DNA of 64,000 bases from Paludibacteraceae bacterium. GTDB lineage: Bacteria > Bacteroidota > Bacteroidia > Bacteroidales > Paludibacteraceae. Of this stretch, positions 25,756 through 40,232 are shown piece after piece. The stretch is taken from the NCBI GenBank assembly GCA_905235505.1, contig CAJOMJ010000001.1, positions 120,952 through 184,951 on the forward strand. Reading direction: 5' to 3'. The notes beneath the pieces were generated by a model. That model was not told the origin of the DNA. It ran no database searches and saw nothing but the letters and a program-made list of their open reading frames with translations. Position numbers and translations under genes: made by a program. Positions within the stretch are counted from its first letter, which is position 1; each line of letters opens with the position of its first letter.

Positions 25756-26352
25756 TCATTTCTTAACCTTGTTTACTATTGCCATAAGGTAGGCAAGGGC
25801 GATGAAGGCACCCGGAGCAAGCACGAAAATGAGCATACCGTATTGTTCGGGGAACACCTTCAAGCCAAAACACATACCTGAGCCGAGCAGTTCTCTGACA
25901 GCACCGAGTACGGTGAGTGAGAGAGTAAAGCCCAGACCCATGCCGAGTCCGTCAAGAGCAGAGAGACCTACACTGTTTTTGGCTGCAAAAGCTTCAGCAC
26001 GACCGAGCACAATGCAGTTGACCACAATAAGCGGAATAAACAAGCCGAGAGTCTCATAGATAGCAGGTACGTAAGCCTGCATAAGCAGTTGCACCATAGT
26101 AACGAATGAGGCGATAACCACTATATAAGCAGGTATATGCACTTTATCGGGAATCAGATTGCGTATAAGGGAGATGACCACGTTGGAGCACACGAGTACG
26201 AATAGTGTGGCAAGACCCATCGACATACCATTGATAGCGGAGGTGGTGGTGGCAAGTGTGGGGCACATGCCAAGCACCAGTCCGAAAGTAGGATTCTCCC
26301 GAAGGAGTCCGTTGGTGAATGTTTTGAGCGGCTTATTCATCTTTTTCTTCAA
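25756..26352 (-). CDS. rnfE: Rnf complex subunit E
   Basis: 198 residues, six membrane helices, a homologue of RnfA with opposite topology. Blocks LVLGMCPTLATTTSAING and IPLIVVNCIVLGRAEAFA hold the conserved membrane cysteines. Its start overlaps the end of rnfG by 20 bp, consistent with tight co-translation. Order rnfD-G-E-A is standard for the operon. Confidence 0.97.
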   Translation of the reverse strand: MKKKMNKPLKTFTNGLLRENPTFGLVLGMCPTLATTTSAINGMSMGLATLFVLVCSNVVISLIRNLIPDKVHIPAYIVVIASFVTMVQLLMQAYVPAIYETLGLFIPLIVVNCIVLGRAEAFAAKNSVGLSALDGLGMGLGFTLSLTVLGAVRELLGSGMCFGLKVFPEQYGMLIFVLAPGAFIALAYLMAIVNKVKK

Positions 26353-26995
26353 TTATAGGTTCTACATTTTCAGGATAAATCTCCTGCAGTTCTTCATTCT
26401 CTGAGAGTGAGGTAGCACCCGAGAGAGCGTCAGCTGCAGGCTTGGTATATGTATCATACGCTGCCTGCACAGCCTTCAGGAAAGCACGGGAGGATATTGT
26501 GGCAGCAGTGATAGCATCTACCTCACCGCCATCCTTGGATACTGTGAAATTGCTTGTAGCAGGGCTGCGACCCAAGATAGACTGGCGGTTCTTGTCGGTC
26601 TTGAACCATGTAGTCATGTGGTCACCCAAGCCCGGAGTCTCCTGATGTTCAAGCACCTCGTAATTGACGATATTGCCCTCACTGTCGAAACCTACCATCA
26701 GGCGGAACACACCTCCGAAACCGTTTGCCTGTGTCTGCACTGCAGCACCCACAACCGAGTCACCTGCGTATGCCCTGTATATCAGCATACCTTCCTTTTC
26801 TTCAGCCTCAGCTATCTCAATTCCTTCCAATGCGGGCAGCACGGAAGTGATAGCCTTCTGCTGTTTTTCGACCTTCTGCCTTGCTATAGGCTCTTCGGTG
26901 AGTACATACAGCCCACCGAGCAATGCTGCTGCCACGAGAGTAACAATAGTCAGCGACAGCACCATATTGAGTAAGTTGGATTCCAATCGTTTCAT
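26333..26995 (-). CDS. rnfG: Rnf complex subunit G (FMN-binding)
   Basis: 220 residues: one N-terminal membrane helix (about 9-31) and a periplasmic FMN-binding domain. The covalent flavin site is the Thr in DAITAATISSRAF, equivalent to the S/T-G-A-T motif of RnfG and NqrC; here the Gly position is Ala. GVFRLMVGFDSEGNIVNYEVLEHQETPG is the typical domain core (split here over two strands). The C-terminus is extended and acidic (about 195-220). It overlaps rnfD by four bases. Confidence 0.95.
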   Translation of the reverse strand: MKRLESNLLNMVLSLTIVTLVAAALLGGLYVLTEEPIARQKVEKQQKAITSVLPALEGIEIAEAEEKEGMLIYRAYAGDSVVGAAVQTQANGFGGVFRLMVGFDSEGNIVNYEVLEHQETPGLGDHMTTWFKTDKNRQSILGRSPATSNFTVSKDGGEVDAITAATISSRAFLKAVQAAYDTYTKPAADALSGATSLSENEELQEIYPENVEPIIEEKDE

Positions 26996-27981
26996 TTCTT
27001 CTTCTCCCCAAATCGTTTAGGACGTATATACATATTAAGTAGCGGAGTAACGGCATTCATAATCAGAATGGCGAACGACATTCCCTCAGGATAAGCTCCC
27101 CAAGTACGGATTACCACCACAATCAGACCGATACCTATACCGTAGATTATCTGCCCCCATGCCGTCATAGGCGAGGTTACATAGTCGGTTGCCATGAAGA
27201 TGGCGCCGAGCATCAGACCGCCGGTAAGCAGTTGCTGGGCAGGAGATGCAGCACCGGGCAGAGTCAGATAGAGGATACCTGAGAAAGCGGCTACAGTACA
27301 GAGAATGCTTACAGGTATGTGCCAAGTGATGGTCTTAGTGCAGAGCAGATAGATGCCGCCTATGAGCAGTGCTATTGCACTTATCTCGCCAAACGAGCCT
27401 CCCACATAGCCTGCAGCCATGTTCCACAGACTTGGCAGTTGGTCGAGCAGTGAGCTGTCACCTGCCTTTACAGCCTCTTTCATTATTGCCAACGGAGTAG
27501 CCCCTGTCTCGGCGTCAACGAAAGGCATGGCACTATGGAAACCGAGCGGACGCGGCCATGTAGTCATCTGTACAGGGAAGGAGATAAGCAGGAACACACG
27601 ACCTACAAGAGCAGGGTTGAAGGGGTTCTGCCCCAACCCGCCGAAGGTCATCTTACCTACTCCGATTGCAACCAATGCACCTATAATGACTATCCACAAC
27701 GGCAGATTGCTCGGCAGGTTAAGTGCCAGCAACAGACCTGTAACGATAGCGGAGCAGTCACCTATAGTGGGTTGCTGCTTAAGGATAAACTTGGCTATGA
27801 GCCATTCGAAAAGTACACATGCTGCTACAGAGGTAGCACTAACCATCAGCGCCCCCCACCCGAATGCCACAATAGAAACCACATAGGCGGGCACAAGGGC
27901 GATAATCACGTTCAGCATGTTTCGGCGCACGCTGTCATCGGAGTGAACATGCGGTGCCGGAGAAACGATTAGTTTTGACAT
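26992..27981 (-). CDS. rnfD: Rnf complex subunit D
   Basis: 329 residues from MSKLIVSPAPHVHSDDSVRRN, the family-typical start; an in-frame ATG at 28038 would add 19 atypical residues. RnfD is a multi-helix membrane protein with a covalently bound FMN at the Thr in AETGATPLA. GQNPFNPALVGRVFLLISFP is a diagnostic block. It is separated from the upstream thioesterase gene by 152 bp, an unusual gap within an rnf operon. Confidence 0.95.
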   Translation of the reverse strand: MSKLIVSPAPHVHSDDSVRRNMLNVIIALVPAYVVSIVAFGWGALMVSATSVAACVLFEWLIAKFILKQQPTIGDCSAIVTGLLLALNLPSNLPLWIVIIGALVAIGVGKMTFGGLGQNPFNPALVGRVFLLISFPVQMTTWPRPLGFHSAMPFVDAETGATPLAIMKEAVKAGDSSLLDQLPSLWNMAAGYVGGSFGEISAIALLIGGIYLLCTKTITWHIPVSILCTVAAFSGILYLTLPGAASPAQQLLTGGLMLGAIFMATDYVTSPMTAWGQIIYGIGIGLIVVVIRTWGAYPEGMSFAILIMNAVTPLLNMYIRPKRFGEKKK

Positions 27982-28133
27982 ATTATCATTTTGTTTATTG
28001 TTTATTATTCTATGACTATTACAACAGATATTCTGCACCCTGACAGAGTTCCCGTGTTATTCACATGAGGAAAACCCTAATGAAGCAAGCATATATGCTA
28101 TCAGGATATTCACTTTGCCAAGTAATCTGTTTT

Positions 28134-28682
28134 TCATAACCTGATTGATTTATACACGGGTTGTTTTGCCCTTTCTATAATCTGTTCGAGGGTATAATCT
28201 TCATCCGACAGCCCTGCCTCCATGAATTGCATCTCGCGGGCTTTCTCTTCGGGGAAGGCAAAATATGTACATTCACACATTGTCAGCACATTGCCCTCCG
28301 CATCGGAGAGACTGCCCTCCACCACAGCTACGCGGTGGTTGTTCTGCTTGAGCCGGGCACGGAGTATCAGAGGACCTCCCATGGTGCTTACTGCCTTTTT
28401 GTATTTCAGTTCGAACTTGGCAGTAACACCACTGGTACATAACTTCTTGAACACCACCCAGCCGCACACTTCGTCAAGCAAGGTAGCCTGCATGCCGCCA
28501 TGCAACGTGTTCAGCCACGACTGATGATTTTGAGTAGGTATCCACACGCTGACAATGTCTCCCATGATATCTGACGGGTCCTCCTCATAGAAGCGCATCT
28601 GTGCTCCTATAGGGTTTGTAGGACAGCAACCGAAGCAGTTGTAGCCGTTTAGATTTATCCACGGATTCAATATCTCACGCAT
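28134..28682 (-). CDS. PaaI-type hotdog-fold thioesterase
   Basis: 182 residues. It has a hotdog-domain pattern: HGGMQATLLDEVCGWVVF holds the conserved His-Gly-Gly and Asp/Glu catalytic region of PaaI/4HBT thioesterases, followed by strands FELKYKKAV and VVEGSLSDAEGNVLT. An N-terminal CFGCCPTNPIG block has three Cys that could bind metal. It should hydrolyse an acyl-CoA thioester; the substrate is unknown. It lies between rnfC (35 bp away) and rnfD, an atypical position. Confidence 0.85.
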   Translation of the reverse strand: MREILNPWINLNGYNCFGCCPTNPIGAQMRFYEEDPSDIMGDIVSVWIPTQNHQSWLNTLHGGMQATLLDEVCGWVVFKKLCTSGVTAKFELKYKKAVSTMGGPLILRARLKQNNHRVAVVEGSLSDAEGNVLTMCECTYFAFPEEKAREMQFMEAGLSDEDYTLEQIIERAKQPVYKSIRL

Positions 28683-28717
28683 AAGTGCCGGTGTAATTGA
28701 AGATTTGCCATTCTTGG

Positions 28718-30052
28718 TTATTTCTGAGCTCTGGCACGTATTATACCTCCTACTGTAGCCTTGCCTGCACGTATATAGTCGAGCAACGGACGGTTACTCG
28801 GGCAGGTGAACTGGCAGCAACCGCAGTCGATACAGTCCATTACATCGTGCTTCTCCATATCATCCCAACGCTCGAGATAAGAGAGTTTGCTGAGCAGATA
28901 CGGTTCAAGTCCCATCGGGCAGGCTTGTACACACTTGCCGCAGCGGATACAGTTCTCGGGTTGCGCACGGCGGGAGTCTTCTTTGTCAAGAAGCAGAGCA
29001 CCGGACATACGCTTGTTGCACGGCATATCCGTATTGTTCATTGCACGCCCCATCATAGGTCCGCCGCCGATAATCTTGCCTGTATTCTCAGGTATGCCAC
29101 CTGCCACCTCAAGCACATCCTGAAGAGGGGTACCGAAGCGGACAAGATAGTTGCCGGGGTTCTTCACCTCTTTGCCTGTAACAGTCATCACACGCGAGAT
29201 GAGAGGTTTGTTTTTCTGCACAGCCTCATATACGGCATATATGGTAGCCACATTGTCAACCACAGCGCCCACCTCGATAGGCAGTGCGCCGCTTGGCACC
29301 TGACGGCGTATGCAGGCATCAATAAGCTGTTTCTCTCCGCCCTGCGGGTAACGCAGATTTAGAGGCTGAACGCTGATACCGAGAGTATGCGATGCAAGAC
29401 GGGTCATGTGCTCAATGGCATCAGGTTTGTTTTTCTCAATACCTATGATAGCAGTGTTGATATTGAGAGCCTTCATAAGAATCTGAATACCTACTATTAT
29501 CTCTTCACCATGCTCAAGCATAAGCTGGTGGTCGCAGGTGAGATAGGGTTCGCACTCAACGCCATTGACTATAAGCACCTCAGGCGTCTTGCCCGGAGGC
29601 GGCATGAGTTTGACATGCGTCGGGAAGCAGGCGCCTCCGAGTCCTACTATACCTGCCTGTTTCACCTTCTCTATTATCTCCTTTGCATCAAGTTTGCAGA
29701 CGGTAATGAGGGTGTCGGTGCGGTCGATTTCAGGCAACCACTCGTCACCCTCCACATCGATGAATATGGCAGGCATGGTCATTCCCCATGCGTCTTTGGC
29801 TGTATCTATCTTAGTCACAGTTCCGCTGACGGGAGAATGAATATTTGCGCTTACAAATCCGCCGGCCTCTGCTATCAGTTGCCCTACCAGCACCTTGTCG
29901 CCTTTCTGCACCAACGGTTTGGCAGGTGCGCCTATATGCTGCACAAGCGGAATAACTGCTTTCTTCGGCAGAGGCACTTCGGTAATGGGTTTGTGAACCG
30001 AATATTGTTTATTGTCATGCGGATGAACACCGCCTATACGAAATGTTTTCAT
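28718..30052 (-). CDS. rnfC: Rnf complex subunit C
   Basis: 444 residues, the cytoplasmic NADH/FMN subunit. Order: N-terminal RnfC barrel domain (HPHDNKQYSVHKPI, PLVQHIGAPAKPLV), Rossmann-like NADH/FMN domain (GGACFPTHVKL, NGVECEPYLTCDHQLM), SLBB domain, then two 4Fe-4S motifs CIRCGKCVQACPMG and CIDCGCCQFTCPS near residues 368-418. The start overlaps the rnfB stop by four bases. It is shorter at the C-terminus than gammaproteobacterial RnfC, as is normal in Bacteroidota. Confidence 0.97.
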   Translation of the reverse strand: MKTFRIGGVHPHDNKQYSVHKPITEVPLPKKAVIPLVQHIGAPAKPLVQKGDKVLVGQLIAEAGGFVSANIHSPVSGTVTKIDTAKDAWGMTMPAIFIDVEGDEWLPEIDRTDTLITVCKLDAKEIIEKVKQAGIVGLGGACFPTHVKLMPPPGKTPEVLIVNGVECEPYLTCDHQLMLEHGEEIIVGIQILMKALNINTAIIGIEKNKPDAIEHMTRLASHTLGISVQPLNLRYPQGGEKQLIDACIRRQVPSGALPIEVGAVVDNVATIYAVYEAVQKNKPLISRVMTVTGKEVKNPGNYLVRFGTPLQDVLEVAGGIPENTGKIIGGGPMMGRAMNNTDMPCNKRMSGALLLDKEDSRRAQPENCIRCGKCVQACPMGLEPYLLSKLSYLERWDDMEKHDVMDCIDCGCCQFTCPSNRPLLDYIRAGKATVGGIIRARAQK

Positions 30053-31005
30053 TGCTTGTCCTCCTTGTTTGTGGGTTCAACATTCTGCGGAGCAGGTTCT
30101 TGCTTGGGCTCTGCCGCAGGTTTGGGAGCCTCTTGTGCCGTTTTGGCAGTAGTATCGGGAGTCTCCTCTACAGGTTTTGGAGCGGGTTTGGGAGGGAAGT
30201 TAAGTTCGTGAATGGCACCTGTAGGACAAGCGGCTGCACACTTGCGGCACAGACGGCATTTCTGCCAGTCGATATAAGCCAGATTGTCCTCCACTGTGAT
30301 AGCCTCGAACTGACATTCTTTCTGGCACTTACCGCAACCGATACAAGCATTAAGGCAGTTCTTGCGGGCTACAGCACCCTTGTCTTTGTTGACGCACTGC
30401 ACGAACACGCGGCGGTTCTTCGGACCTTTCTTGCGGAGTTCGATAATGTGGCGCGGACAAGCCTTCACGCAGGCACCGCACGACGTACATTTGTCATCGT
30501 CAACCTCGGGCAGACCTGTCTCCACGTTAATCTTGATAGCGCCGAACTGGCAAGCACTCACGCAGTCGCCGCAACCGAGGCATCCGAAAGCGCAACCGGT
30601 CTCGCCTACATACAGGCTGTTCATGATTTTGCAAGAGCGGGTACCGTCGTACTCACTTGTGCGCGGACGCGCCTGGCAAGTACCGTTACAGCGTACCACA
30701 GCCACCATCGGGTCTGCGGCTGCAGGTGCGAGGCCAAGAATGTCACCCACTTGTTTCATTACATCCTGACCGCCTACAGGACAAAGGAGTCCGTCGAGCG
30801 AGTCAGCCTTCACGCATGCTTCTGCCAGAGCGCGACAGCCTGCGAAACCGCAACCGCCGCAGTTGGCTCCGGGAAGCACCTCTACCACCTCGTCAATACG
30901 AGGGTCTTCTTCCACCTTGAAGCGTTGCGCCACAAAATAGAGTATCAACGCCGCCAACAGGCCCGCAACACCCAAGGTAATAAGAGCAATTAAAATCAGA
31001 TTCAT
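30049..31005 (-). CDS. rnfB: Rnf complex subunit B (polyferredoxin)
   Basis: 318 residues: N-terminal membrane helix (about 3-27), the RnfB 4Fe-4S site CGGCGFAGC followed by a further Cys in LLCPVGG, then four ferredoxin motifs (CLGCGDCVSAC, CTSCGACVKAC, CIGCGKCQKEC, CRLCRKCAAAC). It accepts electrons from reduced ferredoxin and passes them on. The last 50 residues are Pro/Ala/Lys/Glu-rich and probably disordered. Normally rseC precedes rnfB directly; here three extra genes intervene. Confidence 0.97.
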   Translation of the reverse strand: MNLILIALITLGVAGLLAALILYFVAQRFKVEEDPRIDEVVEVLPGANCGGCGFAGCRALAEACVKADSLDGLLCPVGGQDVMKQVGDILGLAPAAADPMVAVVRCNGTCQARPRTSEYDGTRSCKIMNSLYVGETGCAFGCLGCGDCVSACQFGAIKINVETGLPEVDDDKCTSCGACVKACPRHIIELRKKGPKNRRVFVQCVNKDKGAVARKNCLNACIGCGKCQKECQFEAITVEDNLAYIDWQKCRLCRKCAAACPTGAIHELNFPPKPAPKPVEETPDTTAKTAQEAPKPAAEPKQEPAPQNVEPTNKEDKQ

Positions 31006-31088
31006 GTTGTTTTATGTAGTATATTTTGTTTTGTTATCAATGTTAGTTCATAGGGTTAATTACGCTTCACATCATTCCCTGCTTGCTT

Positions 31089-31221
31089 ATAATAGTGACT
31101 AATTGATAGTTATATGAGGATAATTTCTTTCCCAACTTGCCTCTATATTATTGAACGAATGTTCCAAAGTATCGTCAATCACTGTTACATATTCTGGATA
31201 GTATTCTATAACTTGCATTAA
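31089..31221. repeat. direct repeat, copy 1 (3' end of lipoprotein A)
   Basis: 133 bp nearly identical to 33292-33426. Starting ATAATAGTGACTAATTGATA, it covers the last 41 codons of lipoprotein A and 10 bp beyond its stop. Differences seen: one substitution (G here, T in copy 2) and a 2-bp insertion in copy 2. Confidence 0.95.
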
Positions 31222-31719
31222 CTGATATGGGGGAGGATCAATATGTGTTATAATGGTATAGCTTTTGCCTAACATAGTAAAGGTCTGAATTGAATCAGCG
31301 GGATCAAACCATTTAGAATATCTCCGGATTGAGTCATTAATGTACAGAGCACGTCCTTCAACAACATAACTATAGCCCTTATTAGTAAACTTTTGCACGT
31401 GCAACTGATGTTTCTCATAATCAAAAGGAGTCTCTATATCATATTTATCTAATGTGTACCAACATGCCTCGTAGAAAAAATCACTTGGTTTGTGTATAGC
31501 CTCATATTTGTGGGTAGAAGATGAATATATTGCATAATATGAATGAACATGAAAAGAATCTAAAGGAGAGTATATGTATGCTGCACCATCTTGTTCGAAT
31601 TGCTCAACATGCTCAACCCCGGTATGCTGCTCAATATTAGCCTGATGACTGCTACAACCGGTCGTCAAGACAAGTAACAATAAACGTACAGACAAATTTA
31701 ATATATATACTTTTTTCAT
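31099..31719 (-). CDS. lipoprotein A of the peptidase cassette
   Basis: 206 residues with a lipoprotein signal (lipobox LTTGC, Cys about 22). The mature part is rich in Tyr, His and Ser, and has strands such as YSYVVEGRALYINDSI. It is a paralogue of the lipoprotein at 33388-33825: both contain EKHxLHxxKxxNKGxxYVxEGxxLYIND. No known domain recognised. It follows the putative cysteine peptidase by 11 bp and precedes rnfB by 93 bp. Pairing with a peptidase suggests, as inference, an inhibitor or partner. Base composition is clearly AT-richer than neighbouring rnf genes. Confidence 0.75.
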   Translation of the reverse strand: MKKVYILNLSVRLLLLVLTTGCSSHQANIEQHTGVEHVEQFEQDGAAYIYSPLDSFHVHSYYAIYSSSTHKYEAIHKPSDFFYEACWYTLDKYDIETPFDYEKHQLHVQKFTNKGYSYVVEGRALYINDSIRRYSKWFDPADSIQTFTMLGKSYTIITHIDPPPYQLMQVIEYYPEYVTVIDDTLEHSFNNIEASWERNYPHITIN

Positions 31720-31730
31720 GCAGAATTAAT

Positions 31731-33293
31731 TTATAATGTTGTTAGACCATAATGTAGATTCCAAAAACTATATCTTCTCATATATGGATGATAGTTATGC
31801 TCACTTATTGTGTAGCCGTTATCTGTTACCATGAAATACCTGTCTTTAACACTACCATCGTTTTTAAGTGTAGCCCCTGTCCCAAATGCCACAATATAAT
31901 GACTGCAGTAGACAGCTATGATAACAGGTTCTGATATATTGCCTGAAGACGGATGATTACCTATTATCCAATCATAGGGTTTGCAAGTAAACTTAACGTG
32001 ATAAGTTCCATTGGTAGCTGTATCAAAACCTCTATTCAGCCCTCCGTGATACAAGGGGAAATGCCATACTCCTTGAGCCGTGAATGGCACTGTTTCATTA
32101 TAGAAACAAGCTGTCAAACCATTATCTGCCTCATTACTGCGAGTCGTAAAGTTATATAAAGAGGTAAATAGTCCTAAACTATAATTATTGGCAACATCTG
32201 AATATCTATAATATGCATAATGATTCGTAGCATTTATTTCGAAAAAGCTAAAATCTACGTCAGGATACAAAGGTAAATAGTACCCATTAAAATTATTATA
32301 TTTTCCTCTATATACCCATGCACAAGCCGCAGGTCCACAATAGCCCTGCCAGTGTGTTGCCTGCAATTGGGGATTATCATATTCAGGAATAGTATATACA
32401 TCGAAATAACCCAATGTATAATCAAGCAACGCTATCAATTCACGAATATAGTCAATCTCAGACTCTGTAACCGATTCAGTTTCTCCACTCATTATGTCAC
32501 TTAAATTCAAGTTCTCTCCCGGATCGGGTTCTATCTCATTTATCAAGTCTTGAAGATTATTCTCCACATAAGCATCTATCAACTGCCAATATTCATCACG
32601 TTCAGCTATATATTCATCAATAGATTCATCCAGCTCAGACATATCTTGCTGAATCGCATCAAGATCTCCACTTTCCATCAGTTGCAACATTAAATACATT
32701 TCTTCCTCATCAGTAGAAACAATGGTGTCCAATCCGCCCTCAATTTCTTCATTACAATCCTGAAGGAAACATACCCCATTCATACCATAATATCTATGTG
32801 GATAGTTACCCACATAATAATCAAGCATTTGACAATTATAATCAAGCGGGTCTTGGAATAGAAACGCTATAACTCCGGCAATCTCTTTCTGCGCATACGT
32901 AGTAACCGTTGCCACTATTTGTCCGTTGCAAACATATCCGAACTCATAATATTTGGGGGTATTATTATAATTATATACCACTTTAGGAAGTTCTGTCAAA
33001 TACCACTCATCATAAGGGTTAACTCCTTCTCCTAAGCCATAATTTGCTCCTGCTAATAATTCCGCAGATGCCAACAAGCGTGCTACCTTGTAGTGAATTA
33101 CATTCGTCGGGTCTGCAGTATACAAAGAATACAACTCCACAGGACTCGTATAATCCATTGATTGTATGGATATCGGAGTATACTGCCTACCCTTTGATTT
33201 CACATCATCCTCAACTTCTGTATTTGAATATTGAGAACATGATAACAGCAAACAGCTGAACACCATTAATAAAGATAATCTACGAAGTTTCAT
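31731..33293 (-). CDS. lipoprotein with papain/C10-like cysteine peptidase domain
   Basis: 520 residues from the ATG at 33293 (MKLRRLSLLMVFSC), which gives a proper lipoprotein signal (LLLSC, Cys 19); an upstream ATG at 33338 is less likely. Residues about 40-165 contain a strand-rich region (KVVYNYNNTPKYYEFGYV, NGQIVATVTTYA) that recalls propeptide domains of C10 peptidases. An acidic helical linker follows (about 195-305). The C-terminal part has WQGYCGPAACAWVY (putative catalytic Cys), VYCSHYIVAFGTG (putative His) and MVTDNGYTISEH (putative Asn/Asp), in papain-clan order. Substrate unknown. The gene is AT-rich and sits inside the rseC-rnfB interval. Confidence 0.65.
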   Translation of the reverse strand: MKLRRLSLLMVFSCLLLSCSQYSNTEVEDDVKSKGRQYTPISIQSMDYTSPVELYSLYTADPTNVIHYKVARLLASAELLAGANYGLGEGVNPYDEWYLTELPKVVYNYNNTPKYYEFGYVCNGQIVATVTTYAQKEIAGVIAFLFQDPLDYNCQMLDYYVGNYPHRYYGMNGVCFLQDCNEEIEGGLDTIVSTDEEEMYLMLQLMESGDLDAIQQDMSELDESIDEYIAERDEYWQLIDAYVENNLQDLINEIEPDPGENLNLSDIMSGETESVTESEIDYIRELIALLDYTLGYFDVYTIPEYDNPQLQATHWQGYCGPAACAWVYRGKYNNFNGYYLPLYPDVDFSFFEINATNHYAYYRYSDVANNYSLGLFTSLYNFTTRSNEADNGLTACFYNETVPFTAQGVWHFPLYHGGLNRGFDTATNGTYHVKFTCKPYDWIIGNHPSSGNISEPVIIAVYCSHYIVAFGTGATLKNDGSVKDRYFMVTDNGYTISEHNYHPYMRRYSFWNLHYGLTTL

Positions 33294-33426
33294 AATAGTG
33301 ACTAATTTATAGTTATATGAGGATAATTTCTTTCCCAACTTGCCTCTATATTATTGAACGAATGTTCCAAAGTATCGTCAATCACTGTTACATATTCTGG
33401 ATAGTATTGTCTATAACTTGCATTAA
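33292..33426. repeat. direct repeat, copy 2 (decayed 3' end of lipoprotein B)
   Basis: 135 bp matching 31089-31221 except for one substitution and two extra bases (GT on the plus strand, in TATTGTCTATAAC versus TATTCTATAAC). It ends exactly at the start codon of the peptidase gene. The insertion shifts the lipoprotein B frame so that the repeat is no longer translated in the ancestral frame. Confidence 0.95.
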
Positions 33427-33825
33427 TGGATACGGAGCAGGATTTTTTACCTCTTCAGGATTACACCACCTACCATACGAAATCAATGTATCATTTATAT
33501 ATAGAGACCCGCCCTCAATCACGTATGCAACTCCTTTATTACTCAATTTCTTCAAATGCAGTTCATGTTTCTCTTCGTCATGAATAGTCTCATCTTGCTC
33601 AGGATACCACGAAACCATGTACATAAAAGCAGCTGGAGGAAGACATAATTCTATTATTCTCCCACCTATGTGATGATAAGAGCGAGTAATAATAGTATCA
33701 TTTTGTGAATATACAAATGCATTTCCCCTCTCCTCCCCATAATTATTAGGAGTCACTGCGTCACAAGCGCAGAGAAAAACTGATAGTACAGACAGTACCA
33801 AGATGCTACGAATTAACCTTTTCAT
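33388..33825 (-). CDS. lipoprotein B of the peptidase cassette, C-terminus frameshifted
   Basis: 145 residues, lipobox LCAC (Cys about 20). It is a paralogue of lipoprotein A (shared EKHELHLKKLSNKGVAYVIE block and LYINDT). After LMQVI the frame is altered by a 2-bp insertion and stops at 33388; removing the two bases would extend it to a TAG at 33302-33304, giving about 173 residues with the same ending as lipoprotein A (NNIEASWERNYPHI). It is therefore truncated relative to its paralogue and may be non-functional. It starts 13 bp after rseC. Confidence 0.75.
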   Translation of the reverse strand: MKRLIRSILVLSVLSVFLCACDAVTPNNYGEERGNAFVYSQNDTIITRSYHHIGGRIIELCLPPAAFMYMVSWYPEQDETIHDEEKHELHLKKLSNKGVAYVIEGGSLYINDTLISYGRWCNPEEVKNPAPYPLMQVIDNTIQNM

Positions 33826-33838
33826 AATACATATTGTT

Positions 33839-34255
33839 TTATATTTCTATCCATTTCTTCGCCTTGAATTCGAAGTTCTTCTTTATTTTGTTGCGCGACA
33901 ACCATACTATAATATAATAAGGCAACAACGAGCATAGTGCGAGAGTGCCGGCAACAGTTTCGGAGAAGAACTTGCCTGCAAGCCATAGCACAAACATCAG
34001 CAGGCAGAAAGGCAGCACAAAACTCAGCAATACCGCCAACCAGCCCTGCTTCTGCGACACACTCACCATTACTTCATCGCCTGCCTGCAACTCCTCATCT
34101 GCAACACAATCTATGAACTTCTCACGCACATCGGCAGCCATACAACTCTTAGCCGCACTGCACGCACCGCAAGCCGACGACTGGAGAATACGCACATGCA
34201 CCGCATTGCCGCTTACCGACTCCACCACTCCTTTATGTTCTATCGCTTCACTCAT
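33839..34255 (-). CDS. rseC: SoxR-reducing system / sigma-E regulator protein RseC
   Basis: 138 residues. The N-terminal SACGACSAAKSC Cys cluster and the two membrane helices (about 70-115) are the RseC family layout. In Bacteroidales rseC is the first gene of the rnf operon and is thought to act with Rnf in redox maintenance. Here it still leads the unit, but three lipoprotein/peptidase genes separate it from rnfB. Confidence 0.9.
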   Translation of the reverse strand: MSEAIEHKGVVESVSGNAVHVRILQSSACGACSAAKSCMAADVREKFIDCVADEELQAGDEVMVSVSQKQGWLAVLLSFVLPFCLLMFVLWLAGKFFSETVAGTLALCSLLPYYIIVWLSRNKIKKNFEFKAKKWIEI

Positions 34256-34299
34256 AGCATTATTCTGTCACACACTACCCCATTATCCATAATAGCGTG

Positions 34300-34307
34300 C
34301 AAAATTA
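34300..34307 (-). promoter_or_regulatory. possible -7 element for the rseC-rnf unit
   Basis: On the minus strand TAATTTTG (34307-34300) matches TAnnTTTG, 45 bases before the rseC ATG. No TTG is found 19-20 bases upstream, so the match is incomplete. Confidence 0.4.
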
Positions 34308-34435
34308 CAAATAATCGGTCGATAAATAAAGTAAAAAATGACATAATATGTGTTTTCTTTTGTTTTCTCTACCTACAACAAGCTACCGGACACTCTGACA
34401 AGATAATCATTAGTAGTGAAAATGCGCACCGAAGC

Positions 34436-34466
34436 TTGTACAACTCATAATAAAGCGATACCTTTG
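34436..34466 (+). promoter_or_regulatory. promoter for the CDF exporter gene
   Basis: TTG (34436-34438), 20 bases, TACCTTTG (34459-34466), with the ATG at 34516. The remaining rseC/CDF intergenic stretch (34256-34435) is AT-rich and holds no other feature I can support. Confidence 0.75.
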
Positions 34467-34515
34467 CAGCACGATACAGATATATGTTATAACAACATAC
34501 TTGAACATACTCTAT

Positions 34516-35412
34516 ATGCATAATCATCACGAACATCATCATCACGAGGTGAACCAACTCAGTTGGATCTTCATTCTCTCCATCATTCTCAATCTTGCCT
34601 TCGTCATCATCGAAGCAGGTGTAGGTTTTTGGCAGGATTCGCTCTCTCTGCTGAGCGATGCGGGGCATAACCTGAGCGATGTACTCAGTCTTGTGCTCGT
34701 TCTCATAGGTTTCGGTCTGGCGAAAGTGCACTCCAACGAGCATTACACCTACGGTTACAAGAAAAGCACAGTGCTCATCTCTCTGCTTAATGCCATCATT
34801 CTCCTGATAGCAGTAGGAGCAATCATTGTAGAGAGTATCCACAAGTTTCAGACTCCTGCGGAGGTCAACGGAGCCGCAATCTCGTGGACGGCGGGTGTGG
34901 GTATCATCATCAATGGTGCAACGGCATTGCTTCTCATGCGCGGACAGAAGCACGACCTTAATGTGCGAGGGGCGTTTCTGCACATGGTTGCCGACACACT
35001 GGTATCTATCGGGGTGGTAATCTCGGGCATAGTAATCTACCACACCGGTTGGTACATCATCGACCCTGTTATCAGCCTCGTCATAGCCGCTGTCATTCTC
35101 GTCTCCACTTGGGATTTACTCTCCGACAGTCTGCGTCTCTCCCTTGACGGCATACCCGAAGGGCTCGATATCAATCACATACAAGAACTTCTGCTCAACC
35201 ACGAACACGTGATTGGAGTTCATCACATACACGTGTGGGCAATCAGCACCACTGAGAATGCCCTCACTGCGCATCTCGTGGTTGACAGTCTCGAAAACGA
35301 AGCCGAAGTGAAACACTCGCTGAAACACCGGCTTGCCGACGAAGGTATAACACACGCCACCCTCGAAACAGAGACACCGCAAACAGTTTGCGACGAGCAC
35401 AACTGCTGCTGA
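34516..35412 (+). CDS. cation diffusion facilitator (Zn2+/Co2+-type exporter)
   Basis: 298 residues from ATG 34516; an in-frame TTG at 34501 is a weaker start. The N-terminus is His-rich (MHNHHEHHHHE), then six membrane helices. Metal-site motifs are LLSDAGHNLSD in helix 2 and HMVADTLVS in helix 5. The cytoplasmic C-terminal domain (about 205-290, VIGVHHIHVWAIS) is typical of CDF/CzcD proteins, and the tail CDEHNCC adds possible metal ligands. It should export zinc or a similar ion from the cytoplasm in exchange for protons. Confidence 0.93.
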   Translation: MHNHHEHHHHEVNQLSWIFILSIILNLAFVIIEAGVGFWQDSLSLLSDAGHNLSDVLSLVLVLIGFGLAKVHSNEHYTYGYKKSTVLISLLNAIILLIAVGAIIVESIHKFQTPAEVNGAAISWTAGVGIIINGATALLLMRGQKHDLNVRGAFLHMVADTLVSIGVVISGIVIYHTGWYIIDPVISLVIAAVILVSTWDLLSDSLRLSLDGIPEGLDINHIQELLLNHEHVIGVHHIHVWAISTTENALTAHLVVDSLENEAEVKHSLKHRLADEGITHATLETETPQTVCDEHNCC

Positions 35413-35517
35413 AAGAGAATCAATCTTATTCTTCTTTCACATTACGGCACACCCTGCTAAAAATAACATAAATATCACGCCAAATTATTAAAACTTTTGC
35501 CTCTCCGTCAAGCCAGA

Positions 35518-35560
35518 GGTAGCCGAGTGTTAGCCGAGTGTTTGCTTACACTTTGCTACC
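35518..35560. other. hairpin-forming intergenic segment
   Basis: GGTAGC (35518-35523) pairs with GCTACC (35555-35560), enclosing AGTGT (35537-35541) and ACACT (35548-35552). Between them AGCCGAGTGT occurs twice in tandem (35521-35530 and 35532-35541). It lies between the CDF gene and the ftsK promoter. It could be a terminator-like structure or a small RNA element; it is not a tRNA. Confidence 0.35.
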
Positions 35561-35596
35561 CCTTATTATTAAAATAACTTAAAAGCACCTTTTTAG

Positions 35597-35627
35597 TTGC
35601 ATATCTCGAAAAAACATTGTATCTTTG
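35597..35627 (+). promoter_or_regulatory. promoter for ftsK
   Basis: TTG (35597-35599), 20 bases, TATCTTTG (35620-35627). The ftsK ATG at 35684 is 57 bases downstream. Confidence 0.8.
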
Positions 35628-35683
35628 CATGTTTATTGTGCAAACTTGCAATTATGCAGCCTTAACTATTAAATAACTCAGAT

Positions 35684-38245
35684 ATGGCAACAAAACGACC
35701 TACACGACCAACGCGGAAAAACGACATTGAAGTAGTTAGCGAACATGAGAGAAATTTCCGCTTCTCTGACCTCAAGAAAATAGGAGAGTTCTTTAAGGAC
35801 GAGCGCGTACAGCTGGTATGCGGCATCATTCTTTTGGCGCTTACCCTCTATCTTACTATCGCTTTCATTTCTTTCTTCTTCACCGGCAGAGCCGACTTCT
35901 CTATTATGGAGCAGCCGCACGAGACCACACGCGCCCTGAGAAACGACATACAGAACTGGGGCGGGTTGGAAGGCGCGAGCATCTCACGCTTCCTCATTGA
36001 CAGCAGTTTCGGTATCGCCTCTGTTGTGATACTGGTATTCATGGCCCTTTGGTCGGTCAGACTTATCTCCCCGCATTACACTTTCCGCGGTTGGAAACTC
36101 TTTTTCTGCTCCGCCTTTTGGCTTGTATGGGGCAGTCTTATACTCGGCTTTATCCAGCAATGGACAAGTATCGACGCCTTCTTCCGCTGGGGTGGCAAAC
36201 ATGGCGAGACAGTGAGTCTGTGGCTCACATCATACATACAAATAATAGGAGTCTTTATCCTGCTGGTTGCAGGCACTTTCATCTTCTTTGTGTGCATCGA
36301 CCCGAACACCATTCCCAACCTTCAGCGTTTCGGGCAATGGGTGAAGTCTCTCTTCAAAAGAAAACCCAAAGAACAGCCTGTCATCGGCGAAATAGATACG
36401 CCGCAAGACCCTGATACTCCTGATACTCCTGCTTCAGGCGACCCTGATGACCCTGAGATAGTAGATGTAACCGACAACCCGGACGATATTACCAACTCGG
36501 CAGACGACAACTTCACTATCCATGTAGGTGGTGAGGATGAGGAGCCTGACGCACCTGACAACGGGCAAGACACAGAAGAACCCGAGCCACAGAAAGACCC
36601 TGAACTCGACATCAACGATACAGAAGATACAGAGCTCTCGGAAGACGACCCTGACTTCCTGCTAAAGAAACTCGGGCCCTACGACCCGCGTCTTGACCTT
36701 AGTCATTTCAAGGCTCCGTCTCTCTCACTTCTGAAGACATACGAAAACGAGACACGCCCCATTATCGACACAGAAGAGCAGCAGGAGAACAAAAAGCGTA
36801 TCATTCAGGCTTTACGCAACTTCGGAATAGAGATAGTGAGTATCTCGGCTACTGTCGGACCTACTGTCACCCTCTATGAGATTGTTCCCAAGGAGGGAGT
36901 GAAGATATCACGCATCACGAGTTTGGAGAATGATATAATGATGTCGATTGCCGCCAAGGGCATTCGTATCATTGCCCCTATGCCGGGCAAAAGCACAGTA
37001 GGTATAGAAGTGCCCAACAAGAAACCTCAGATAGTGTCAATGCACTCGGTGGTAGCCAGCAGAAAGTTCCAGGAGGAGCAGAAGATGCGTCTCCCCATTG
37101 TGTTGGGCAAGACGATTACCAACGAAGTCTTCATGTTCGACCTTGCCAAAACTCCGCACCTGTTAGTGGCAGGTGCGACGGGTCAGGGTAAGTCGGTAGC
37201 ACTCAACGCCATCATCACCTCTCTGCTATACAAGAAGCATCCTTCGGAGTTGAAGATGGTGCTCATTGACCCGAAGATGGTGGAATTCAGTATATACGAG
37301 CCCTTATGCCGCCACTACATGGCAGCCATGCCCGACTACGACCCTACAGAAGACAAGATTATCATTACCGACTGCAAGAAAGTAATCAATACTCTCAACT
37401 CACTTGTAATCGAGATGGAGGACCGCTACAGGTTGCTTATGGACGCACGTGTAAGGACTCTTGAAGACTACAATGAGAAATTCATTAACAGGAAACTCAA
37501 TCCTGAGAAAGAAGTAATAAACGACGAAGGCAAAATACTTCATCACAAATTTCTGCCTTACATAGTGATAGTGATAGACGAGTACGGCGACTTCATCATG
37601 CAGGCAGGCAAAGAGGTGGAATTGCCTATCGCACGCCTTACACAGAAAGCCCGTGCTGTCGGAATGCACCTTATTCTTGCCACCCAGCGACCCGAGGTGA
37701 AGATTGTGACAGGTCTTATCAAGTCGAACATACCTACCCGAATAGCACTGCGCACCCAGTCGGTTATCGACTCGCGTACGGTACTCGACTCAAAGGGAGC
37801 GGAAGGTCTGACGGGCAAGGGCGATATGCTCTATGCTGCCAATGCCGAACTTATACGTGTACAATGTGCGTTTGTGGACACGCCCGAAGTGGAGGCGATA
37901 GTTAACAATATCAGTCAGCAACAGTCATATTCGATGCCATACCAGCTGCCTGAATATGTAGGCAGTGAAGGCGAAGGTGAAGCTCCTGCTCCGGGCAGTG
38001 TTGACATGAAGAAACTTGACCCGATGTTCAAAGATATTGCTACCTACGTAGTTACCAAGCAGGAAGGCTCTACCAGCAAACTGCAACGTGCCTTTGCGAT
38101 AGGCTATAACAAAGCAGGCAAACTGACAGACCAACTGGAAGCTGCAGGTATCGTAGGGCCCAACAAGGGTCCAAAAGGAAGAGACGTACTCGTGCAAGAC
38201 CTCACAGAATTGGCACAGATTTTGGAAAGCTTGGGAGTAAAGTAG
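35684..38245 (+). CDS. ftsK: DNA translocase FtsK/SpoIIIE
   Basis: 853 residues: four N-terminal membrane helices (about 45-205), a strongly acidic Asp/Glu/Pro linker (about 235-330), an alpha domain (about 345-440), the RecA-like motor with Walker A GATGQGKS at residues 497-504 and MVLIDPKMVEF/ IVIVIDEYGDF, and a C-terminal gamma winged helix (about 775-853, STSKLQRAFAIGYNKAGKLTDQ in two helices). It pumps chromosome ends through the division septum and helps dimer resolution. The divisome gene ftsX is at 51-52 kb. Confidence 0.96.
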   Translation: MATKRPTRPTRKNDIEVVSEHERNFRFSDLKKIGEFFKDERVQLVCGIILLALTLYLTIAFISFFFTGRADFSIMEQPHETTRALRNDIQNWGGLEGASISRFLIDSSFGIASVVILVFMALWSVRLISPHYTFRGWKLFFCSAFWLVWGSLILGFIQQWTSIDAFFRWGGKHGETVSLWLTSYIQIIGVFILLVAGTFIFFVCIDPNTIPNLQRFGQWVKSLFKRKPKEQPVIGEIDTPQDPDTPDTPASGDPDDPEIVDVTDNPDDITNSADDNFTIHVGGEDEEPDAPDNGQDTEEPEPQKDPELDINDTEDTELSEDDPDFLLKKLGPYDPRLDLSHFKAPSLSLLKTYENETRPIIDTEEQQENKKRIIQALRNFGIEIVSISATVGPTVTLYEIVPKEGVKISRITSLENDIMMSIAAKGIRIIAPMPGKSTVGIEVPNKKPQIVSMHSVVASRKFQEEQKMRLPIVLGKTITNEVFMFDLAKTPHLLVAGATGQGKSVALNAIITSLLYKKHPSELKMVLIDPKMVEFSIYEPLCRHYMAAMPDYDPTEDKIIITDCKKVINTLNSLVIEMEDRYRLLMDARVRTLEDYNEKFINRKLNPEKEVINDEGKILHHKFLPYIVIVIDEYGDFIMQAGKEVELPIARLTQKARAVGMHLILATQRPEVKIVTGLIKSNIPTRIALRTQSVIDSRTVLDSKGAEGLTGKGDMLYAANAELIRVQCAFVDTPEVEAIVNNISQQQSYSMPYQLPEYVGSEGEGEAPAPGSVDMKKLDPMFKDIATYVVTKQEGSTSKLQRAFAIGYNKAGKLTDQLEAAGIVGPNKGPKGRDVLVQDLTELAQILESLGVK

Positions 38246-38264
38246 GTCAGTTACAAGTTGAGAG

Positions 38265-38861
38265 ATGAAGAGAGCAGTTAAGATATTGCTGATAATGATG
38301 CTTGTGCCGATGGCAGGTATGGCAGAGGACGATGTGCTTGCACGCCTCTATAATAATTTAGAGAAGCAGACATTAGAGTCAGATTTCACCTTCACCATCA
38401 CCGAAAACGGCGGACAGCCCACCAACATCACTGGCAAGATAGTGATGAGAGGCGAGAAGTTCAGCGCCAACCTTATGGGTACGGAAATAGCCTACGACGG
38501 CAAGACACTCTATACCTATAGCGAAGACAACGACGAACTCACCCTGTCAACTCCCACTATGGAGGAGCTCATCGAGTCTAACCCGCTTCTCTTTGTCCAA
38601 ACACTAACCGATGCATACGAGACCAAAACAGCAGAACAAGCCTCCAACTGGCTTATCATTATCAAACCGGATGCACAACTGACCGGAGTAAGAGAGTTTA
38701 CACTCACACTCCGCAAGTCAGACCTTATGCCGGTCAGTGCCTCTATGCGCGAAACGAACTTCAACACTACCACACTCACTTTCAGGAACCAGCACTTCAG
38801 CTCTACCCTACCCGACTTCACCATCAACAAACCCGATGCATATCTCAACGATTTAAGATAA
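38265..38861 (+). CDS. LolA-like outer-membrane lipoprotein carrier
   Basis: 198 residues: signal peptide 1-20 (GMAE), then the antiparallel strands of a LolA half-barrel (ESDFTFTITENGG, ITGKIVMRGEKFSANLMG, EIAYDGKTLYTYSED). LolA carries lipoproteins through the periplasm. In Bacteroidales the LolA-like gene commonly follows ftsK, as here with 19 bp between. The numerous lipoproteins of this window would be its clients, by inference. Confidence 0.85.
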   Translation: MKRAVKILLIMMLVPMAGMAEDDVLARLYNNLEKQTLESDFTFTITENGGQPTNITGKIVMRGEKFSANLMGTEIAYDGKTLYTYSEDNDELTLSTPTMEELIESNPLLFVQTLTDAYETKTAEQASNWLIIIKPDAQLTGVREFTLTLRKSDLMPVSASMRETNFNTTTLTFRNQHFSSTLPDFTINKPDAYLNDLR

Positions 38862-38893
38862 AAACACTAACATATCAACATCCCGACCGACAA

Positions 38894-39826
38894 ATGCAAC
38901 ACGTTAAATGCTTAATCATAGGCTCAGGTCCTGCAGGATACACCGCAGCCATCTATGCCTCACGCGCCAACTTGCAACCCATACTCTATGAGGGTCCGCA
39001 GGCAGGAGGACAACTCACCACTACCACCGAGGTGGAGAACTTCCCCGGATACCCTGACGGAGTGGAGCCATTCCAGATGATGGACGACATGCGGAAGCAG
39101 GCAGAGCGTTTCGGCGCAGAGATACGCTCAGGCATAGTCACCAGAGTGGATTTTTCACTCTCACCCAAGCACGTATGGGTGGAAGATACAGAGGAGCTGA
39201 CTGCAGATACCGTCATTATCGCCACAGGTGCAAGTGCCAAATACCTGGGTCTGCCTTCGGAGAAAGAATACAAAGGCAAGGGTGTGTCAGCATGTGCGAC
39301 CTGCGACGGGTTTTTCTATAGAAGGAAGACGGTGGCAGTGGTCGGAGGAGGCGACACAGCATGCGAAGAAGCCTTGTATCTGTCAGGGCTCTGTCTGAAA
39401 GTATATCTTATCGTACGCAAACCATATCTGCGTGCTTCGGAGATTATGCAGAAACGCGTACGTGAGGCAGAGAACATAGAGATACTGTTCGAGCACAACA
39501 CTCTGCAACTGACAGGCGAAGGCAAAGTGCAGGGTGCAGACCTCATATATAGAAAAGGTGAAGCAGACGAGAGTCTGAGACATATTGACATTGACGGATT
39601 CTTCCTTGCCATAGGTCATCACCCTAACAGTGATATCTTCAAGGAATACATTGCGACCGACGAGCAAGGTTATATCATCACCCGACCCGGTACGCCGCTA
39701 ACCAATGTAGCAGGCGTGTTTGCCGCAGGCGACGTGGCAGACCCGCACTACCGACAAGCCATCACCGCAGCAGCCTCCGGCTGCAAAGCCGCAATAGAAG
39801 CAGAGAAATACTTAAAAACGCTGTAA
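38894..39826 (+). CDS. trxB: thioredoxin-disulfide reductase
   Basis: 310 residues. FAD motif GSGPAGYTAAIYASRA at residues 9-24, redox-active CATC at residues 134-137, NADPH motif VVGGGDTACEEA near 152-163, and the C-terminal FAD block VAGVFAAGDVADPHYRQ. It reduces thioredoxin with NADPH. It follows the lolA-like gene by 32 bp and probably shares its transcript. Confidence 0.97.
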   Translation: MQHVKCLIIGSGPAGYTAAIYASRANLQPILYEGPQAGGQLTTTTEVENFPGYPDGVEPFQMMDDMRKQAERFGAEIRSGIVTRVDFSLSPKHVWVEDTEELTADTVIIATGASAKYLGLPSEKEYKGKGVSACATCDGFFYRRKTVAVVGGGDTACEEALYLSGLCLKVYLIVRKPYLRASEIMQKRVREAENIEILFEHNTLQLTGEGKVQGADLIYRKGEADESLRHIDIDGFFLAIGHHPNSDIFKEYIATDEQGYIITRPGTPLTNVAGVFAAGDVADPHYRQAITAAASGCKAAIEAEKYLKTL

Positions 39827-39829
39827 ACA

Positions 39830-39861
39830 TTTGTGTATTTCAAATAAATATACTACCTTTG
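39830..39861 (+). promoter_or_regulatory. promoter for rpsO
   Basis: TTTG (39830-39833), 20 bases, TACCTTTG (39854-39861). The predicted leader to the ATG at 39963 is about 95 bases, long enough for an S15-type autoregulatory structure, although none was identified. Confidence 0.8.
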
Positions 39862-39962
39862 CAGCCGCTTTCGTGAGAAGGCAGAATAAATGTGGGAGAG
39901 GGGGATGTAAGCAAACAATAAAGCCCTTGACCATTATCGTTTAACTAATAAATAGAAAGAAG

Positions 39963-40232
39963 ATGTATTTGACATCAGAAAAGAAGGCAGAAATCTTTGC
40001 ACAATACGGCAAAGATGCCAAGAACACCGGTAGTGCAGAAAGCCAGATTGCACTCTTTACCTATCGTATCCAACACCTCACCGAGCACCTGAAGAACAAC
40101 CACAAGGACTACGGTACAGAACGCGCTCTTACACGCCTTGTCGGCAAGCGCCGTCGTCTGTTGGACTACCTGAAAGAGCAAGATATCGAGCGTTACCGCG
40201 CTATCATCAAAGAACTGGGTATCCGTAAGTAA
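39963..40232 (+). CDS. rpsO: 30S ribosomal protein S15
   Basis: 89 residues, full length. Family blocks TGSAESQIALFTYRI and LTEHLKNNHKDYGTERALTRLVGKRRRLLDYL bind the central domain of 16S rRNA (second block split into two helices). It is flanked by its own promoter and terminator, so it is a monocistronic unit. Confidence 0.98.
   Translation: MYLTSEKKAEIFAQYGKDAKNTGSAESQIALFTYRIQHLTEHLKNNHKDYGTERALTRLVGKRRRLLDYLKEQDIERYRAIIKELGIRK

Follow-up and report, generated by a model that had tools for sequence, protein, structure and literature searches.

Between rseC and rnfB in a 64,000-nucleotide stretch of Paludibacteraceae bacterium DNA (contig CAJOMJ010000001.1, positions 120,952 to 184,951; hereafter the window), three genes encode a 520-residue putative cysteine peptidase and, on either side of it, two small lipoproteins, A and B. 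Judged from its structure model, the 520-residue protein appears to be a papain-clan zymogen with the build of families C10 and C47, and by sequence comparison both the peptidase and the lipoproteins belong to families that are unnamed in the libraries searched. We lean, by a modest degree, towards a module composed of a self-inhibited, lipid-anchored papain-clan peptidase and a protective lipoprotein. The zymogen fold and membrane anchor of the peptidase and its linkage to the lipoprotein are predicted by the model or apparent from the sequence, and inhibition is the best explanation for the lipoprotein, though unproven. The papain clan would thereby gain a family that lacks a model in the searched libraries and has the zymogen architecture of C10 and C47 proteases, together with a new, directly testable candidate partner family; the layout of a protease with a neighbouring partner would recur beyond C10 in Bacteroidales, and in the remnants described below nature would have recorded which member of such a pair survives. 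The features are as follows.

30049-31005, minus strand: rnfB (flank), with Fe-S domains
31099-31719, minus strand: lipoprotein B, 206 residues, an intact partner whose gene is the next one downstream of the peptidase gene, after 11 bp
31731-33293, minus strand: peptidase, 520-residue open reading frame with lipobox Cys19 (by eye) and an AlphaFold2 model
31818-31823, minus strand: codons of Asp491-Asn492, invariant in 17/17 members, right after strand 482-490 in the model
31899-31901, minus strand: codon of His465, invariant in 17/17, at the start of strand 465-477 in the model
32337-32339, minus strand: codon of Cys319, invariant in 17/17, at the start of helix 319-331 in the model
33388-33825, minus strand: lipoprotein A, 145-residue open reading frame, a paralogue of B that has lost the conserved C-terminus by frameshift
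33839-34255, minus strand: rseC (flank), Pfam RseC_MucC at E 7.8e-27

Peptidase family and its predicted zymogen fold

The peptidase is composed of a signal peptide with lipobox Cys19, a prodomain (~44-133), a variable helical linker (~134-296) and a catalytic domain (~297-520). The papain-like order of Cys, His and Asn/Asp proposed in the first-pass annotation of the window is real, and nine residues never vary among the 17 aligned members: Cys319, Gly320, Trp326, Tyr328, Pro456, His465, Asp491, Asn492 and Gly493. The Cys motif reads CG in 17/17, followed by P in 16/17. The AlphaFold2 model built from this alignment, which retains the G310 sequence (E 3.4e-4) as a distant row, has a predicted template modelling score of 0.82; the useful model came from 17 sequences, an earlier one from four sequences having a predicted local distance difference test score of 37.6. 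The model exhibits the arrangement of papain clan CA, in which the central helix bears the Cys and the strands after it the His and Asn/Asp. Its best matches over prodomain and catalytic domain are the cysteine-protease zymogens prostaphopain B, pro-SpeB and prointerpain A, a comparison that speaks for the families in the compared list and leaves room for papain families outside it. The N-terminal prodomain, lipoprotein signal and papain-like peptidase suggested at first pass are supported by the sequence and the model.

The predicted fold resembles the C47 staphopain zymogen and, in its prodomain followed by a papain-like catalytic domain, C10 as well, and the catalytic Cys and His of C10 are present in 17/17 members. 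Membership of C10 was nevertheless rejected on the PF01640 profile and the Cys motif. None of the 17 members matched PF01640 at E 1, whereas the C10 matches listed in 21 genomes reached 1.3e-42 or better, save the two pieces of one broken gene (5.8e-20 and 2.5e-12), and the divergent C10 protein of G206 still matches at 4.6e-18. The C10 Cys motif GC[VPI][AS][TCV]A occurs in 15/16 C10 proteins selected independently of that pattern (a near-identical one had served to select a further 8), and no motif of this GC-V/I-A-T-A type was found in the peptidase family. The window peptidase has no Pfam or NCBIfam family, and the 17 members gave nothing beyond scattered weak matches; none was to a C47 model (E 1), which the library should contain, and the N-domain had no Pfam match to PF13734 (Inhibitor_I69). 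Aligned by hhalign, the N-domain reached PF13734 at P 0.0022 (whole run) and 0.012 (domain), with HH probabilities of 12.9% and 3.5%; the reversed domain controls gave 0.13 and 0.35. Comparison with papain-clan families, as proposed at first pass, gave a zymogen fold like that of C10 and C47 but no C10, C39 or C47 Pfam match. Weak matches of the peptidase to PDB sequences were taken as chance.

Relatives of the peptidase occur in 12/178 genomes of the genus, as 10 intact genes in 9 genomes and as remnants only in 3. Matches were found in 16/358 genomes of the family and 5/393 of the order, each count including the window and one dropped match; the dropped matches proved to be the C10 protein of G206 and a serpin in G546. 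The relatives come from records titled Paludibacteraceae, Paludibacter sp., Bacteroidales, Bacteroidia and Porphyromonas uenonis, the last with two copies close together. A single-sequence scan of the genome contigs gave no match, and the alignment-based scan gave 10 loci. No relatives were found in phages with the window peptidase as query, on plasmids with a P. uenonis copy, or on viral contigs with the 17-member alignment and one pattern. At the level of titles and the beginnings of abstracts no literature description of such a family was found, which does not prove its absence from print.

Bacteroides C10 proteases of the Bfp/Btp type are co-transcribed with the putative inhibitors Bfi/Bti, both often being predicted lipoproteins (PMC2873492, PMC3462683). 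The module resembles these systems in its predicted lipoprotein zymogen with a prodomain and in its small partner gene a few bp away, often encoding a lipoprotein, in clusters with decayed copies (PMC2873492, PMC3462683). It differs in lacking a PF01640 or PF13734 match, in its CGPxxxAWxYR motif, in its long helical linker and in a partner without profile resemblance to propeptides. C10 is listed in PMC10318531 among families with a complete core but without a full triad, whereas the window family has an invariant Asp-Asn-Gly after the His strand. Unlike the staphostatin of the C47 staphopain system, the partner carries a lipoprotein signal, and neither a C47 model among the Pfam matches nor a staphostatin in the PDB profile search was found. 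SpeB-Spi (C10) differs from the module in that the latter has a lipid anchor and a partner that is not propeptide-like by profile. C39-like and ComA/PCAT domains differ in turn: the window peptidase has a zymogen prodomain, no Pfam C39 match and no place in an ABC transporter.

The partner lipoproteins and their gene ends

All three products begin with a signal-peptide-like segment and a Cys at residues 19-22 (lipobox read by eye). Over 131 columns, lipoproteins A and B share 36% identity, confirming the paralogy recognised at first pass, and they represent a family of ~165-210 residues whose genes lie directly downstream of 8/10 intact peptidase genes in the genus. The family, for which no Pfam/NCBIfam-type model was found, has 21 strong copies (E 1.1e-20 or better, A included) in 14 genomes. 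Both partners are present in 8 of the 178 genomes, the peptidase only in 1, the lipoprotein only in 6 and neither in 163 (Fisher p 1e-9); nine genomes with lipoprotein matches of 5.7e-5 to 8.6e-4 were counted as lacking the lipoprotein, and G103, G109 and G148, which hold peptidase remnants only, as having no intact peptidase. The G150 contig stops ~540 bp past the lipoprotein. Beyond the genus, the peptidase in G239, G275, G721 and G448 is followed by small lipoprotein-like genes, whose tie to the family is mainly one of position and signal peptide.

A resemblance of the lipoproteins to the propeptide was not supported: hhalign was no better than the reversed controls, and none of 18 lipoprotein members matched I69. 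The idea that they are free propeptides was rejected at the sequence-profile level by the same hhalign comparison. The sole PADLOC match, a short and weak one between lipoprotein B and Avs2 (E 0.0035, 12.8 bits), was taken as chance, as were weak matches of the lipoproteins to PDB sequences.

The 3' ends of the two lipoprotein regions share a direct repeat of 122 bp that was overlooked at first pass.

31089-31210, no strand: repeat copy 1, the 3' end of lipoprotein B
33292-33413, no strand: repeat copy 2, covering the 3' end of lipoprotein A and reaching the start of the peptidase
33305-33418, minus strand: match to C-terminal family-profile positions 144-182, in a frame other than that of lipoprotein A

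The repeat is near-identical (119/122) although proteins A and B share only 36% identity. Just upstream of it there is a 2-bp difference in spacing between the copies (2203 versus 2205), and because of this difference and the conserved C-terminus found in another frame, lipoprotein A is a C-terminally frameshifted paralogue without the conserved C-terminus of the family. The frameshift probably followed an exchange between the two lipoprotein gene ends. Of the proposed peptidase with paired inhibitors, the genetic linkage to a small lipoprotein family is supported, and two working partners are not. In G448, from another family, three tandem small lipoprotein genes (L151 4916-7640) share a 177-nt 3' end that is 87-89% identical, and exchange of gene ends may therefore be habitual in such tandem lipoprotein arrays.

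G109, the closest of the compared genomes by RseC (71%), carries between rseC and rnfB, in order, a deletion scar of the peptidase (98 residues from its N-terminus and 20 from its C-terminus), a lipoprotein A whose end is intact, a C-terminal peptidase remnant of 18 residues, lipoprotein B and a weakly RHS-like lipoprotein. Peptidase remnants also occur in G103, G127 and G148, and G077 retains the lipoprotein with a TPR gene and a short DUF3244-like remnant but has no peptidase match. Because peptidase remnants adjoin intact lipoproteins, tandem duplication followed by peptidase loss is suggested, and the simplest history would be an ancestral tandem of two peptidase-lipoprotein units, with different parts of the peptidases lost in each lineage.

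Proposed function and competing explanations

In the mechanism that we propose, the peptidase would be exported, lipid-anchored and made in a self-blocked form, the prodomain blocking the active site. A cut in the variable linker would activate the enzyme and may free it from the membrane, and the downstream lipoprotein would bind and block enzyme that acts prematurely or attacks the envelope of its own cell, much as has been suggested for the C10-Bfi/Bti clusters (PMC2873492, PMC3462683). The unit would duplicate in tandem, with peptidase copies then lost and lipoprotein copies staying, as in G109; the window would have kept a second, frameshifted lipoprotein in front of an intact peptidase-lipoprotein pair.

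Several observations weigh against this proposal. Foldseek gave nothing for the peptidase model that reached E 0.001, and the hhalign of the catalytic domain to C10 was weak (P 0.05; reversed controls 0.37 and 0.21). Papain carries a Gln six residues before the catalytic Cys, and it is absent here, the ungapped position holding Thr in 15/17 and Phe in 2/17 (aligned column: Thr 16/17, Ala 1/17). For the lipoproteins, profiles resemble neither propeptide nor peptidase, and a profile search of PDB sequences (E 10) listed no inhibitor and no staphostatin, which does not exclude the lipocalin-like fold of staphostatins. The linkage has exceptions: no lipoprotein was found by the family profile in G075 (98% complete), which has an intact peptidase; two other open reading frames separate peptidase and lipoprotein in G006; and the P. 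uenonis copies are followed by a 253-residue HELAH protein and a PGA_cap-like protein rather than by the lipoprotein family. The Fisher test ignores kinship, several genomes are incomplete (G150 82%, G103 81%, G148 84%), and the asymmetry of retention, 6 lipoprotein-only genomes versus 1 peptidase-only, is not significant (p 0.125). Peptidase and lipoprotein distances are uncorrelated (Mantel r 0.06-0.19, p 0.11-0.33, three tests); mirror-tree comparisons of peptidase and lipoprotein with RseC likewise gave no correlation (r -0.20, p 0.91; r 0.19, p 0.20).

Among the other explanations, toxin and immunity, in our estimate unlikely, would make the peptidase a surface- or vesicle-borne antibacterial weapon aimed at related strains, and the lipoproteins would be immunity proteins that stay behind as orphans once the toxin is lost. 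The G109 scar and remnant beside two intact lipoproteins, the remnants in the three other genomes, the lipoprotein of G077 beside its TPR gene and DUF3244-like remnant, the sporadic distribution (intact peptidase in 9/178 genomes) and G124, in which the peptidase is 55% but the lipoprotein 31% identical to that of the window, all favour it. A protease with an inhibitor would, however, predict the same decay, so that the remnants fit either explanation equally well; secreted zymogens have this prodomain architecture, and inspection by eye of the genes around the copies, most of which were not profile-scanned, showed no delivery domain and no secretion-system gene. A wider version, in which an unnamed family of lipid-anchored protease toxins with lipoprotein immunity partners has spread and been amplified in Bacteroidales, the toxin dying while the immunity persists and tandem units exchanging partner-gene ends, we hold to be rather unlikely. 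It is improbable that the lipoprotein serves the peptidase in another way, as its chaperone, anchor, substrate or activator. In favour of this, the lipoprotein lacks propeptide resemblance, and what ties it to the peptidase is linkage and co-occurrence only; against it, the zymogen genes of C10 and C47 lie next to genes for proven or putative inhibitors (PMC3462683), and lipoproteins occur without an intact peptidase in 6 genomes, some of them incomplete. The missing Gln, and the amidases and transferases among papain-like folds (PMC10318531), would also suit a papain-like protein that is non-proteolytic (an amidase, transglutaminase or acyltransferase) or has lost activity. With C, H, D and N invariant in 17/17 and the whole-zymogen architecture of proteases, we consider this quite improbable, and we retain the self-inhibited peptidase with a protective lipoprotein as the preferred explanation.

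The rseC-rnfB interval and neighbouring genes

On the minus strand of the window the genes run rseC, lipoprotein A, peptidase, lipoprotein B and rnfB, with gaps of 13, 94, 11 and 93 bp in transcription order; 30049-31005 is taken as rnfB from Fe-S domains found by profile. The three same-strand, AT-rich genes reported at first pass agree with the open reading frames and with a guanine-plus-cytosine content of 0.36 in 31089-33838 versus 0.505 (26000-31088) and 0.479 (33839-40000). Their spacing and the lack of a terminator-like site, none being found in a scan of the minus strand of 30800-34700, make co-transcription with rseC and rnf plausible. A promoter scan gave 21 promoter-like sites versus 15.0 expected (standard deviation 3.1), the best inside the peptidase gene, and was not used as evidence on the module.

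The distance between rseC and rnfB, measured between match ends rather than gene ends, is 16-188 bp in 41/47 genomes of the genus, in line with their supposed normal adjacency, and larger in 6/47. The 47 are those with both matches listed on one contig; four more, of 51 listed for both genes, have them on different contigs and were left out. The insertion into the rseC-rnf unit noted at first pass is true as to position, and only the window genome (G000) and G109 among the 47 have the module there. Other cargo comprises the ~500-residue weakly RHS-like lipoprotein in G105 and G177, as also in G109, a BACON-domain protein (G177) and a GNAT gene (G085). In G083, another species of the genus, the interval (L103 1162-3246) holds a true C10 gene with an I69 propeptide (E 1.5e-61), an independent insertion at the same place. 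Since 6/47 genomes hold cargo there that differs between genomes, the position looks incidental, the site tolerating insertions rather than defining the module. Position and spacing would suit genes serving RseC or the Rnf complex, but four other genomes have other genes there, the other nine intact copies lie elsewhere, and G013 and G028 bear the module elsewhere with 51-52 bp between rseC and rnfB; such a role is very improbable and was rejected as unlikely from the interval survey.

A DUF3244-like gene lies just upstream of 6/10 intact loci (below the curated Pfam cut-off in the four scanned), with a TPR-protein gene also upstream in 5 of these 6; in the sixth, the contig starts there. This two-gene unit recurs just upstream of the peptidase family in L025 4355-6427, L030 3468-5604 and L022 3269-5802. 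No TPR or DUF3244-like gene was found in 9 C10 stretches, some cut by contig ends, and DUF3244 had no match in the window genome. In P. uenonis (L070 5929-10372), downstream of a 1543-residue open reading frame, two peptidase relatives flank the HELAH protein, and the PGA_cap-like protein follows. A true C10 gene, a member of the peptidase family and two tandem partner lipoproteins adjoin in G124 (L020 3268-8805). The weakly RHS-like lipoprotein adjoins rnfB in three related species (L101 1352-2881, L102 1525-3024 and L027 7230-8756).
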